DNA of 64,000 nucleotides from positions 1,810,001 through 1,874,000 of the forward strand of contig NZ_CP015438.1 in assembly GCF_001634285.1 (NCBI RefSeq). Reading direction: 5' to 3'. This DNA comes from Anoxybacillus amylolyticus. GTDB lineage: Bacteria > Bacillota > Bacilli > Bacillales > Anoxybacillaceae. The notes under the pieces are model-generated. The model was given only the letters and a program-made list of their open reading frames with translations. It was not told the origin of the DNA and made no database searches. Shown here piece after piece: positions 24,842 to 49,089 of this stretch (the stretch's first letter is position 1; each line of letters opens with the position of its first letter). The position numbers and the translations under genes were made by a program.

Positions 24842-24921
24842 GATCTATCACCTTCTTTGTATTGGAATAGGATTTATTGTTTCCCAAAGGATGCAAATCC
24901 ATTCTTTTTCAATAATAAGGA

Positions 24922-24949
24922 TTGAGAAGTTAGAAAAATCTGATACAAT
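24922..24949 (+). promoter_or_regulatory. Promoter for the leader and EamA pair
   Basis: TTGAGA (24922-24927), 16 bp, then extended -10 TGATACAAT (TACAAT at 24944-24949). It predicts a transcript start near 24956, 27 bases before the leader peptide. Confidence 0.6.
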
Positions 24950-24982
24950 AAACAAATAAGATTCATATAGGGGGGACGACAA

Positions 24983-25030
24983 TTGTATATGGATTTGTTT
25001 GAAAACGACCAACCAGTTGCTTGCTTCTAA
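24983..25030 (+). CDS. Leader peptide of a translational attenuator
   Basis: 15 codons, TTG start at 24983 (AGGGGGG 7 bases upstream) or ATG at 24989, product MYMDLFENDQPVACF, TAA at 25028. Its last three codons (Ala-Cys-Phe) form arm 1 of the four-arm structure described in the next entry. Position, ribosome site and overlap with the pairing arm make a regulatory role much more likely than a functional peptide. Confidence 0.6.
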   Translation: MYMDLFENDQPVACF

Positions 25031-25083
25031 GGCGGAGCAAGCGCTCGCTCCGTCTGATAAAGAAAAAGAAAAAAGACGGAGGG
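25019..25083 (+). promoter_or_regulatory. Four-arm RNA switch masking the EamA ribosome site
   Basis: Arm 1 GCTTGCTTC (25019-25027) pairs with arm 2 GGAGCAAGC (25034-25042). Arm 2, as GGCGGAGC (25031-25038), can instead pair with arm 3 GCTCCGTC (25047-25054). Arm 3, as CTCCGTCT (25048-25055), pairs perfectly with arm 4 AGACGGAG (25074-25081), which contains most of the Shine-Dalgarno sequence of the transporter. So 1:2 plus 3:4 hides the ribosome site and 2:3 exposes it, the logic of ermC-type translational attenuation. Confidence 0.65.
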
Positions 25084-25090
25084 AAACAAG

Positions 25091-25969
25091 ATGAGACAAA
25101 CTTTTTTCGGTTCCTTGTATTTATCGCTCGCTGCTGGCATCTGGGGCGGGATGTATGTCATTAGTAAATATGTGCTCGATTACATTCCACCATTCACACT
25201 TGTTTGGCTTCGGTATGCGGTTGCCTTTTTTGTATTATGGATGATATTACGCGTGCAGCGCGTTTCTGTTCCGAAAGAAAAGCAAGAGTGGAAGCTGATT
25301 ATTTGGATTGGGATCATTGGTTACGTCCTTTCGATTTCTTTGCAATTCGTCGGTACGAAATGGTCGGATGCCCATACCGCTTCGCTCATTACATCGGCGA
25401 CACCAGCATTCATTGTGCTCTTTGCCTGCTGGATGTTACACGAAGCGATTACGTGGCGAAAGTTGTTTGCGCTACTATTAGCAACAGCAGGGGTCGTTGT
25501 CGTCGTCGGATTAGGCGGCGGGGAGGCGACTTCGTTTGTAGGGAACGTATTATTAGTCGGTGCGGCGCTAACATGGGCGCTTTTATCGGTGCTCGTAAAA
25601 ATCGCGTCTGCCCGACTGTCGGTATTAGTCATTACGACATATGCGATTTTCGTTGCGCTTGTTGGCACAACACCGATGATGGTGTGGGAGGTATGGAAGG
25701 AGGTACCGTTAACCTTTTCGTTGTCGATAGTCCTAGGGGTTCTTTACCTTGGTATTGTATCGACCGCATGGGCGTTTTTTCTTTGGAATAAAGGAATGGA
25801 AATGATGGATGCAGGGATTGGTTCGTTATTTTTCTTTTTCCAACCGCTCGTCGGCTCTTTGTTCGGCTGGTTGTTTTTACAAGAGCGATTGGATGTTCCG
25901 TTTTGGTTTGGCGGAGCGCTCATTATTACAGGAGTTGTCATTGCTGTCCTTGAGACAAAGCCATCGTAA
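25091..25969 (+). CDS. DMT-superfamily (EamA) exporter, first of a pair
   Basis: 292 residues with ten membrane segments in two EamA repeats (about 5-140 and 150-285). EamA proteins export amino acids, metabolites or drugs; the substrate here is unknown. The SD (GGAGGG, 8 bases before ATG) is the masked arm of the upstream RNA switch. The second exporter gene follows 13 bp later, so the two may form a heterodimer or have separate substrates. Confidence 0.88.
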   Translation: MRQTFFGSLYLSLAAGIWGGMYVISKYVLDYIPPFTLVWLRYAVAFFVLWMILRVQRVSVPKEKQEWKLIIWIGIIGYVLSISLQFVGTKWSDAHTASLITSATPAFIVLFACWMLHEAITWRKLFALLLATAGVVVVVGLGGGEATSFVGNVLLVGAALTWALLSVLVKIASARLSVLVITTYAIFVALVGTTPMMVWEVWKEVPLTFSLSIVLGVLYLGIVSTAWAFFLWNKGMEMMDAGIGSLFFFFQPLVGSLFGWLFLQERLDVPFWFGGALIITGVVIAVLETKPS

Positions 25970-26335
25970 GAGGAGGGAGAAAATGTCAAGTCGCGCCAAA
26001 GGATTAGCGATGGTAGTAACCGGTGCAACACTTTGGGGGCTGTCAGGGACAGCTGCGCAAATATTGTTTCAAGAAAAGCACGTCACGGCGGAATGGCTCG
26101 TAGCAGTAAGGATGGTATTGGCTGGTTTTGTGCTTGTCGTATTAAGCGCCTTCAAAGGGCTTGAGCCGTTGGCTATTTGGAAAGACCGAAAAAGCCGTTG
26201 GCAGCTTATTGTGTTCGGATTAGTTGGCATGCTTGGCGTGCAATATACGTACTTTTCTTCCATCGCCACCGGGAATGCTGCGACGGCTACGCTACTGCAA
26301 TATTTAGCGCCGGTGTATATTGTTTTATATTCATT

Positions 26336-27700
26336 ACTGTAGTTGAGCAATTTCAATTACAATAATTACCATGTAAAAGAGACAAACAGGGTACCCCTTA
26401 TGCCACGTGGAGCTGTTTTTTCACGGTATCAATGGGAATATTTTGTTTCGCTGCATGGTAAATGAACTCCACGAGGCTATGTCCTTTTCTCTTGCGCAGG
26501 AGATCGAGCCCATCCGAAAAATCGCTGTTAGACTCGAATAGGCTGTACACGTAAGCAAGCTGCACCAAGATCCAGTAACGTTTCACCGCTCGATGATGAC
26601 GAACGCGGTACCCATCGAGTTTCAGCTGGTCTTTCGCTTGACGGAAAAAACATTCGATCGACCAACGCTCGGCATAGTAGCGCAAGATGTCTTCGTCGCT
26701 TAGCTCCCAATCGGTGCTCAAGACGCAATGAAGATGTTCCGGTGTCATCGGTTGATCGGCTTTCCAAACAAGTAGCACCACCGCATCATCGAGACCGTTG
26801 AGCGCTCCTTCGTAACGATAGACGCGATAGCGCTCTTCTCCCACCGTGACGAGGCGGGTGTCATTCGGTTCGAGATAGCGGGCAAACTGCTTCGCTTGGA
26901 TGGCGATGCCTTTCGGATAGAGAATCCGGTTCGTCTTAAGCATCGCGATGACGTGGAACCCTTTTTTCAAGCAGGCTTCCACGAGTGCTTTCGATGGATA
27001 CCAAGAGTCCATCAGTACATAAACAGGACGACTCACATCCAAAGAAGAAAGCATCTCAATCGCGAGTTTTCCTTTGCTTTTTCCAGCCTCCTTGTCGTAG
27101 GGGCGAAAAGCAAACGGAAACGCTTGAGTCATCGTATGAACCATGAGCCAAACGAGAGAATGCCCCCAAATCGATTTTTTCTCTGTGTGAGAATAATGCC
27201 AATCACACCCTTGAATAGCGCATGTTGCCCGTGACGAAGGCTTCGTTTTTTGGCAAATCGTATCATCGATGGAAACAAAAATGGGTTGATTCTTCTGTTT
27301 GGCGATGCGTTCGACACGATGAAGCATCCACTGCTGGAGTTTGCGGAGCAATGTCTCTTCATCCCACGGACTTTTCGTGAAAAAATGGCTCAGTGTCGTG
27401 CGATGGTTCGGATGAAAACTCCCATGATGTAGATCGGTCAACGTTCCCGAAAAACCTTTCGTCACCATCGCATCCACGATATGAACGAGATGCTTCATCA
27501 CAGGTTTCGAGAAATAAAGCGCCAACCCCAACGTCGTGAAAAACTTGTGGATTCCTTGATGATGTGCTAATCTATTCATGAGACATGAACCTCCTTGTGT
27601 GAATGGTTGGTAGCACATCTATTCTAACCAAGGAATCGGGTTCATGTCTTCTTTTTTGTCTCAATGTAAATTTATGTTATCGATTTTGCTCATCTACAGT
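26336..27700 (-). mobile_element. IS4-superfamily insertion sequence, copy 2 (1,365 bp)
   Basis: Same ends and apparently the same sequence as copy 1, same orientation, offset exactly 6,598 bp. It is flanked by TCATT direct repeats (26331-26335, 27701-27705), or 7 bp TTCATTA if the ends are set one base inward. It interrupts the second EamA gene. Confidence 0.95.
26398..27579 (-). CDS. IS4-superfamily transposase, copy 2
   Basis: 393 residues, identical to the copy 1 product, with the same DDE/YREK motifs (IDDT, MDSWY, YAERWSIE). Start at 27579 chosen by the AAGGAGG site. Both copies are intact and presumably active. Confidence 0.93.
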   Translation of the reverse strand: MNRLAHHQGIHKFFTTLGLALYFSKPVMKHLVHIVDAMVTKGFSGTLTDLHHGSFHPNHRTTLSHFFTKSPWDEETLLRKLQQWMLHRVERIAKQKNQPIFVSIDDTICQKTKPSSRATCAIQGCDWHYSHTEKKSIWGHSLVWLMVHTMTQAFPFAFRPYDKEAGKSKGKLAIEMLSSLDVSRPVYVLMDSWYPSKALVEACLKKGFHVIAMLKTNRILYPKGIAIQAKQFARYLEPNDTRLVTVGEERYRVYRYEGALNGLDDAVVLLVWKADQPMTPEHLHCVLSTDWELSDEDILRYYAERWSIECFFRQAKDQLKLDGYRVRHHRAVKRYWILVQLAYVYSLFESNSDFSDGLDLLRKRKGHSLVEFIYHAAKQNIPIDTVKKQLHVA

Positions 27701-28261
27701 TCATTAGTGAAAGAAAAACAAAAGCCGACGGTGAAAATTAGTTTCGCAGTTTTTTTAGCGCTTGCAGGCACGTTTTTACTAATGACAAACGGCACAACCA
27801 ATCAGTTTACGGTTTCACTTGTGTCCGTCGTTTGGGGCGTGTTGTCTGGTGGCGCGTTAGCGTTTTATACGCTTGCTTCTGCCAAGCTATTAAAAACGTG
27901 GCAGACGATGCTTGTCGTTGGATGGGGGATGGTCATTGGCGGCACGGCGATGTGCTGGCTCATTCCATCGTTTGTCCCAACGAATATCGTATTCGGGGTC
28001 GATACGTGGCTATTAATTATTTTTGTCGTTCTTTTCGGGACGCTAATCGCGTTTTTACTATTTGTCGAAAGCATTCGCCATTTATCGCCGACGGAATCAA
28101 GTTTGTTGTCAAGCGTCGAGCCGCTATCTGCTGTCCTTGCCTCGATTGTTTTTTTACACGTTCCGTTTGGCATATTCCAAGCTGTCGGAGCAGCATGCAT
28201 TCTATGGACGGTTTTTCTTCTTTCCGATCTACCGAAAAAACGAATGTACCGCAACATGGAA

Positions 28262-28285
28262 GGGGTGTAGCGATTCGCTACCCCC
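28262..28285. terminator. Bidirectional terminator
   Basis: GGGGTGTAGCG-ATT-CGCTACCCCC lies between the convergent exporter and kinase genes and includes both stop codons. A moderate T-run is seen on the plus strand only. Confidence 0.65.
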
Positions 28286-48464: not shown

Positions 48465-48655
48465 TTGACTTTTAAAAATTTATCGTGTAATATGTAATAA
48501 GTACCATTCAGTTCGTTATTTAAGGATCGTTGTAAGTCGCGCCTCATCGGAAGAGAAGGCCCTCTTAGCAAGCCTTCCTTACGATGGTAGCGCGGCTTTT
48601 CTGTTTGTGAGTAATGAAGGATGGTCAATTTTCAATTTGTTTTGGAGGAATTCAA
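48465..48655 (+). promoter_or_regulatory. Cold-shock gene promoter and structured 5' leader
   Basis: The 318 bp between the redoxin and csp genes holds TTGACT (48465-48470), 17 bp, TAATAT (48488-48493), then a leader of about 155 bases. It can fold with GTCGCGC...CATCG pairing to CGATGGTAGCGCGGC around 48537-48595. Long structured leaders are typical of csp mRNAs and act in cold induction. An inverted repeat CCCAACA...TGTTGGG (48374-48393) may end the redoxin gene. Confidence 0.65.
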
Positions 48656-48856
48656 ATGAACACAGGTACAGTAAAATGGTTTAATGCAGAAAAAGGATTT
48701 GGCTTTATTGCAACAGAAGGCGGAAACGACGTATTCGTTCACTTCACTGCAATCCAAGGCGACGGATTTAAAACGCTTGAAGAAGGACAAAAAGTGACAT
48801 TTGACATTATCAACGGAAACCGTGGTCCACAAGCGGCAAACGTTCGAAAAGGATAA
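48656..48856 (+). CDS. csp: Cold-shock protein (CspA/CspB family)
   Basis: 66 residues. Single-strand nucleic-acid-binding beta barrel with RNP1 KGFGFI and RNP2 VFVHF. GGAGG lies 8 bases before the ATG. Acts as an RNA chaperone at low temperature. Confidence 0.96.
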
Positions 48857-48867
48857 ATGTAGGTACG

Positions 48868-48903
48868 AAAAGTGGTTCTGCTTTCGGGCAGAACCACTTT
48901 TTT
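48868..48903 (+). terminator. Terminator of csp
   Basis: AAAAGTGGTTCTGC-TTTCGG-GCAGAACCACTTTTTT, 14 bp stem. Confidence 0.92.
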
Positions 48904-49060
48904 CATATATTTCTTAAAAAGGAAAAGCTATATGCCATCAGCTTGAGTCGTTGCCTCCTATTCGCTCTTCGCCAATAAGCAGGCGCTTTACGAAAGAAAA
49001 ACGAGATTCACACTGGCGCAGCTTCGGAGCTGCAAGGATGGACGAGAGGTAGGGCTTCCA

Positions 49061-49089
49061 TTGTTTCAGGTTTTTCGATATGGTATAGG
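49061..49089 (+). promoter_or_regulatory. Possible promoter of the GGCT-family gene
   Basis: TTGTTT, 17 bp, TATAGG. Upstream (48904-49060) no gene is seen; a tight hairpin GCAGCT-TCGG-AGCTGC lies near 49017-49032. Confidence 0.35.

Follow-up and report, generated by a model that had tools for sequence, protein, structure and literature searches.

A candidate translational attenuator with a conserved LFEND(Q/V)P leader peptide ahead of an EamA exporter gene

The closest described counterparts of the element analysed here are the erm and cat attenuators (ErmCL, ErmBL, cat), in which a short leader with its own Shine-Dalgarno (SD) sequence and a set of alternative hairpins precede a gene whose SD is freed by a stalled ribosome. 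The hairpins are built from four arms, the first pairing with the second and the third with the fourth, or alternatively the second with the third. In ermC, stalling in the leader exposes the downstream SD (PMC10219788, in excerpt). A sequestered ribosome-binding site is also opened by a stalled ribosome at the toiL-topAI upstream open reading frame (uORF) of E. coli, according to a partial text of PMC12121999. Judging by excerpts on the remaining systems, a leader or uORF precedes a gene that relieves the effects of ribosome-targeting drugs in mef/msrD and vmlR, and in TnaC the nascent chain and a small molecule together halt the ribosome.

The element described here lies in front of a gene for an EamA (DMT) exporter, in a window of 64,000 nucleotides of Anoxybacillus amylolyticus DNA. 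EamA transporters are common and often have no known substrate. The regulatory logic proposed is already known from the erm and cat attenuators; the element itself, as far as its sequence can be compared, appears to have neither an Rfam 15 match nor a published description. Covariance models of Rfam 15 gave no gathering-score match over the leader in the window and six relatives. No leader, attenuation or arrest-peptide element ahead of an EamA or DMT gene was found among the matches listed from the open-licence PMC literature, a body to which subscription papers and preprints do not belong, and the strings LFENDQP and LFENDVP are not mentioned among the matches listed from the open full-text literature.

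Leader, RNA arms and exporter gene in the window

A sequence-only reading of the window had proposed a promoter, a 15-codon open reading frame (ORF) with its own ribosome site and four pairing arms ahead of a pair of exporter genes. A consensus scan does predict a sigma-A type promoter at 24922-24949 on the + strand (TTGAGA-16-TACAAT with TG; 10 of 12 consensus matches), shuffled sequences averaging 0.4 sites. The SD of the leader, GGGGGG, lies at 24970-24975 (+) and is followed at 24983-25030 (+) by the ORF, MYMDLFENDQPVACF and a stop, which belongs to a family of 55 distinct loci. Its 15 sense codons and stop read TTG TAT ATG GAT TTG TTT GAA AAC GAC CAA CCA GTT GCT TGC TTC TAA. The ORF therefore stands as read, with the correction that the initial methionine is encoded by TTG and not written as such in the DNA; the near relative L003 has ATG at this codon. 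A pattern scan of the window's own genome finds the leader a single time. The conserved core, LFENDQP, occupies 24995-25015 (+) and is proposed, from synonymous and non-synonymous counts and from a stall scan, to be an arrest motif, the predicted stall placing the Gln codon 25010-25012 in the P site and the Pro codon 25013-25015 in the A site.

The four arms, all on the + strand, were checked base by base, and the three pairings that had been claimed hold at their coordinates. Arm 1 (25019-25027) consists of the codons immediately 5' of the leader stop, and is followed by arm 2 (25031-25042), arm 3 (25047-25055) and arm 4 (25074-25082). Positions 25019-27 pair with 25034-42 through 9 pairs, one of them G-U (1:2); 25031-38 pair with 25047-54 through 8 pairs, one G-U (2:3); and 25048-55 pair with 25074-81 through 8 pairs without any mismatch or G-U (3:4). 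Arm 4 also carries the exporter SD as proposed, since it overlaps GGAGG at 25078-25082, upstream of the ATG at 25091. The minimum-free-energy fold of 24957-25096 includes both 1:2 and 3:4 (-40.3 kcal/mol, z = -4.16), and none of 200 shuffles was equally stable. In this folding model, the exporter SD would be sequestered as long as no ribosome is stalled on the leader. Elsewhere in the window, a match to the cspA thermoregulator (48580-48901, +) adjoins a match to the BsrC sRNA (48988-49074, -).

The gene behind the leader (25091-25969, +) encodes a 292-aa exporter that matches PF00892 over two stretches with E = 6.4e-44 and 150 bits (cut-off 28.2); its nearest named homologs come from Anoxybacillus, with about 90% identity. 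The proposed exporter pair is confirmed as far as this first EamA gene goes; an intact second gene is not there, a DDE_Tnp_1 transposase gene having split it. The transposase gene lies at 26398-27618 (-) and the pieces of the second EamA gene were matched at 25983-26342 and 27644-28267. Of 29 named loci (L002-L030), 9 were found to have a second EamA gene next to the first, one of the 9 being partial, and an exporter pair was therefore rejected as the general target of the leader.

The exporter scored below the cut-off of the substrate-named NCBIfam models in all five families listed (YddG, YedA, the O-acetylserine/cysteine exporter and others), reaching 62.9 bits with the YddG model (cut-off 300), and the best NCBIfam model, TIGR00950, gave 104.4 bits (cut-off 230.2). 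A sequence search of solved structures returned a sole, weak match, 5i20 (E = 0.002), and the gene neighbours of the leader-exporter loci on plasmids gave no clue to the cargo.

Distribution of the leader family and its link to one exporter subfamily

Relatives were gathered in two ways. Two sets came from protein searches: set 1 comprises 40 homolog loci from GTDB genomes, whose upstream regions were collected, and set 2 derives from 101 genomes, of which 51, counting the window's own, match at E <= 1e-60; 50 of these were read (G053 was omitted). Independently of the protein, the degenerate pattern (L/F)FEND(Q/H/V/L/D/E)P was scanned against 397 genomes of the order and 398 genomes of the phylum, and matched in 56 and 11 genomes, respectively. 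The reversed control pattern gave about 10 matches per scan, to be compared with 60 (order) and 11 (phylum) for the forward pattern; the order scan is thus enriched and the phylum scan is not. Three of the 11 phylum matches are leaders before EamA, the window's among them. Loci were then retained by a filter with three demands: the motif FE(N/H/K/D)(D/Y)(Q/V/R)P, no more than 20 codons to a stop, and the start motif of EamA behind it. The 55 distinct leader loci that pass this filter, 27 of which come from the protein-selected sets, span Bacillales, Peptococcaceae, Desulfosporosinus and Pelosinus and share the core LFEND(Q/V)P. Conservation across homologous loci had been named as a check on the sequence-only reading, and these 55 loci agree in leader and layout.

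The strict motif FE(N/H)D(Q/V)P was present in 21 of the 50 loci of set 2, altered in 4 and missing from 25; in set 1, which overlaps set 2, the corresponding numbers for the 40 loci were 17, 1 and 22. The altered motifs in the protein-search sets are LLENDQP and LLEKYRP. About half of the exporter orthologs in this protein-selected sample therefore have no leader. Among other named carriers, the leader occurs in several Anoxybacillus, in Desulfosporosinus, in Bacillus sp. AFS001701 and in one assembly each of Pelosinus fermentans and Peptococcaceae. The orthologs of A. ayderensis (L008/L081) and A. pushchinoensis (L004/L082) are leaderless, and at L008 a short leader remnant precedes a fairly open SD. 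Aneurinibacillus terranovensis (L019) has a leader-like ORF that ends in RTERDVPSLRI at most 170 bases 5' of the EamA start; by eye its hairpin layout is similar, and its core may be a divergent E-x-D-V-P.

Plasmids carry the leader too. Of 13 plasmid hits, 5 loci were read, and 4 of them have it, on pBM500 and pMLY91_1 of P. megaterium, pPM400 of B. badius and pMEGANia of Niallia taxi; the Selenomonas plasmid does not. The leader of pBM500 (L192) is MFLAPLFENDVPVALLRP, and the leader stretch of this plasmid matches 9 plasmid records. None of the PLSDB gene-table rows listed for the plasmid loci annotates a leader gene. Carriage by phages was considered and rejected: three IMG/VR stretches match the VP-type pattern, the type that was scanned, and none is a leader before EamA.

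An SD-like site precedes the start codon of the leader at 50 of the 55 loci, and the lengths of these 50 leaders range from 12 to 29 codons, 49 of them lying between 12 and 20. The shortest, such as MLFENDQPAACF followed by a stop in Anoxybacillus mongoliensis (L007), have 12 codons, which indicates that the start methionine is all that is needed ahead of LFEND.

How tightly the peptide is tied to the exporter was read from the 70 distinct pattern matches of the order and phylum scans, sorted by ORF length, by residue x (Q or V in the core) and by tail. Short ORFs in which FEND(Q/V)P lies at most 14 codons from the stop precede an EamA start motif within 500 bases in 41 of 41 cases, which represent 38 distinct stretches, the window's included. 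The other 29 matches (long ORFs, other x residues, long tails) had the EamA motif in no case, 3 of the 29 being covered for less than 400 bases. Among the 55 loci, the EamA frame covered is short at three (L150, L166 and L175), and an SD-like site stands immediately before the exporter start at every one. Short frames at L138, L139 and L146 contain FEND(L/V)P, end in GGT(V/I)S and have no EamA motif behind them; they may be one other repeated sequence.

In a tree of 90 EamA proteins, made by a quick method that carries a long-branch warning, one branch splits all 23 rows with VP leaders from all 29 rows with QP leaders, and leaderless rows fall on both sides. One leaderless clade of 13 rows belongs to a single genus code, g4, which I take to be Geobacillus. 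This clade and the A. ayderensis remnant before an SD fit the view that the leader is a long-lived trait that has been lost several times, on a tree that does not separate gain from loss.

Conservation of the core and arms, and the position of the ribosome

Codon pairs were compared among the 27 leaders from protein-selected loci. Synonymous and non-synonymous differences numbered 197:51 at L, 26:0 at F, 0:0 at E, 165:26 at N, 152:0 at D and 199:0 at P, and 76:140 at the x position, which is Q or V. The flanking codons show the reverse, with 10:290 for the one preceding L and 52:270 for the one following P. Conservation of F, E, N, D, x and P is partly by construction, since three of these residues (F, E and P) are set by the filter and the other three are limited to a few choices. 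The core Leu lies outside the filter for these 27 leaders and is Leu in 25 of them; over all 55 it is Leu in 53, written with five codons, some of these loci coming from the pattern that demands L or F. The core Pro, required by the filter, is found in all 55 leaders and uses four codons. Taken together, the codon counts indicate that the leader core is selected as a peptide. The core Glu codon is GAA in 55 of 55 leaders amid varying neighbouring codons.

Selection on the arms was examined in 40 representatives of the 55 loci, obtained by clustering at 85%. In 26 of the 40, arm 1 starts directly behind the Pro codon, at the next base, and in all 40 it starts within six bases of that codon. All 40 have 6 or more pairs in each of the helices 1:2, 2:3 and 3:4, with arm 2 shared in 40 and arm 3 in 39; these counts prove little alone, since long, overlapping search windows make pairing easy. 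More telling is a swap test, in which arms paired better with their own partner than with ones swapped in from other loci: for 1:2, the values were -14.6 and -9.4 kcal/mol (p = 2e-11), and the same preference was found for 2:3 (p = 4e-7) and 3:4 (p = 3e-9), all p-values ignoring kinship beyond the clustering. The control pair, 1:4, showed no effect (p = 0.29). Within the 18 VP representatives, the effect is strong for 1:2 (p = 2e-5) and weak for 2:3 (p = 0.049) and 3:4 (p = 0.085). Pair types, read from the best duplex of each locus, change on either side of helix 1:2, several being used per position; at one arm 1 position in the 22 QP representatives they are GC in 10, CG in 5, AT in 4 and unpaired in 3. 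The arms are selected as RNA, with compensatory pairing. The folding and covariation check across homologs that the earlier reading had called for thus favours its three helices.

The effect of a ribosome was simulated by folding each mRNA as if it were occupied as far as 17 nt from the first base of the P-site codon, a choice that agrees with inverse toeprints, which are reported to end at +17 from the P site (PMC6238534, in part). The scan is a thermodynamic folding, with no co-transcriptional component. Over the 40 representatives, the mean exposure of the exporter SD, scored as unpaired, was 0.09 without a ribosome and rose to 0.39, its highest average, with Q/V in the P site and Pro in the A site. 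Asp in the P site gave 0.30 and Pro 0.29, the value was again 0.09 four codons past Pro, and there was little exposure with the ribosome at codons well outside the Asp-Pro stretch. In 160 shuffled controls the curve was flat at 0.25-0.28, with 0.26 for the no-ribosome comparison. Exposure rose by more than 0.1 at Q/V in 30 of the 40 representatives and did not in the other 10; its maximum fell on Q/V in 20, on Pro in 8 and elsewhere in 12. When the footprint edge was varied from 15 to 18, the peak remained at Q/V, tied with Pro at 15 and with Asp at 18, and the value for Pro in the P site moved between 0.26 and 0.37. All 55 loci gave a mean curve similar to that of the representatives. The window's own curve is weaker, with 0.20 in the absence of a ribosome, a peak of 0.49 one codon earlier, at Asp, then 0.35 at Gln and 0.29 at Pro, and three loci (L028, L136 and L190) show zero gain. 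In leaderless homologs, many of them distant, the SD is more open than in those with a leader (0.34, n=37, versus 0.16, n=32; p = 2.5e-4). The average exposure thus peaks at the Q/V-Pro step, and a stall would be effective at the very place where peptide conservation stops.

These results bear on where the ribosome would have to stop. The sequence-only reading had placed the stall on the last codons of the leader, caused by a ribosome-targeting drug or by a shortage of charged Cys or Phe tRNA. Peptide conservation ends at Pro, with arm 1 beginning at most six bases later in 40 of 40 representatives, and in the folding scan the SD is, on average, best opened at the Q/V-Pro step and left closed by a ribosome four codons past Pro, all of which argues against the last codons. 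Starvation for Cys or Phe is unsupported, because neither residue is conserved: Cys stands at +3 after Pro in 12 of the 55 leaders and Phe at +4 in 22. The erm/cat-like part of that reading, with 1:2 and 3:4 opposed to 2:3 and a hidden SD, is supported by how leader and arms are conserved, pair in compensation and fold in the relatives.

Proposed mechanism, alternatives and known systems

The element is probably a translational attenuator of the EamA exporter, worked by pausing of the ribosome on a conserved nascent peptide; that ribosomes really stall, where exactly, and at what signal, I infer. With the leader empty or read to its stop, arm 3 would pair with arm 4 and hide the exporter SD. 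A signal would pause the ribosome after LFEND(Q/V), at the addition of Pro or just after; the paused ribosome would mask arm 1, leaving arm 2 free to take arm 3, and arm 4 would be released together with the SD. The signal would most likely be a small molecule that acts with the ribosome and the LFEND(Q/V) chain, plausibly the substrate of the exporter itself, a ribosome-targeting compound being the alternative candidate; arrest of this chain by a drug or a metabolite is possible. A bolder version, to which I would give slightly less than an even chance, is that LFEND(Q/V)P defines a new class of very short arrest peptides, in which 7-8 residues and a specific small molecule in the upper tunnel or the peptidyl-transferase centre block transfer to proline, making the ribosome a sensor for a metabolite or natural antibiotic exported by this EamA subfamily.

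The most serious competitor, still unlikely, is a general sensor of ribosome stress, in which many translation inhibitors would stall ribosomes on the leader with no single ligand, as proposed for toiL-topAI. The partial text of PMC12121999 credits toiL with sensing at least five drug classes by a like logic, and excerpts of PMC6238534 report that ribosomes pause at XP(X) in dependence on erythromycin when Pro is in the P site, a position that opens the SD in the folding scan here as well. From the excerpts of PMC6238534 and PMC13410324, such XP(X) pauses establish that Pro steps can be drug-sensitive, and no more. A general sensor would have no need of seven almost invariant residues that stop at a single codon, and codons well away from the Asp-Pro stretch yield little exposure. 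The Pro codon in the A site at the best average stall, and its presence in all 55 leaders through four different codons (the filter requires Pro), would also suit a codon-starvation attenuator, in which uncharged tRNA-Pro, or tRNA for Gln or Val, halts the ribosome at the same codon whatever the peptide. This is improbable: neither LFEND nor its mostly synonymous drift would be needed by a sensor of that kind, the Pro codon there is single rather than part of a run, the leaders listed contain no runs of codons for one amino acid, and inducing an exporter under proline starvation would seem to make little sense.

The two remaining alternatives shift the site of action, and both are very improbable. 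Hairpins controlled by ribosomes are often terminators, and the leader might thus act by transcription attenuation rather than on translation initiation; yet there is no terminator-like site in window positions 24880-25100, and the SD-like site just before the exporter start at 55 of 55 loci speaks for translation. Strong conservation of the peptide would equally be expected if it functioned in trans, the hairpins merely setting a fixed low expression, an idea with marginally the poorest prospects of all; in both subtypes, however, arm 1 starts at the point where the core stops, the residues at the C-terminus change along with the RNA arm, and exposure of the SD depends on the position of the ribosome. 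Rho-dependent loss of unread mRNA is possible. Were the leader gated by a ligand, the stalling compound would point to the cargo of the whole exporter subfamily, and a new arrest peptide would be at hand in which only about eight residues are enough to sense a compound. The natural losses of the leader from certain lineages and its plasmid copies in Priestia megaterium, strain QM B1551 included, offer ready comparison strains.

The erm and cat leaders are not known to have an LFEND(Q/V)P core, and these attenuators control an rRNA methylase or an acetyltransferase, in contrast to a DMT exporter here. On the partial text of PMC12121999, toiL is reported to respond, at different positions, to no fewer than five drug classes, whereas here there is one core and one codon stands out. 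The mef/msrD and vmlR systems, as excerpted, respond to known drugs and act partly by transcription attenuation; here an EamA exporter follows the leader, and a terminator is absent from the part of the window scanned. TnaC, in the excerpts available, controls the tryptophanase operon, and 7 or 8 residues would suffice here before the predicted stall. TnaC is longer than the LFEND(Q/V)P leaders.
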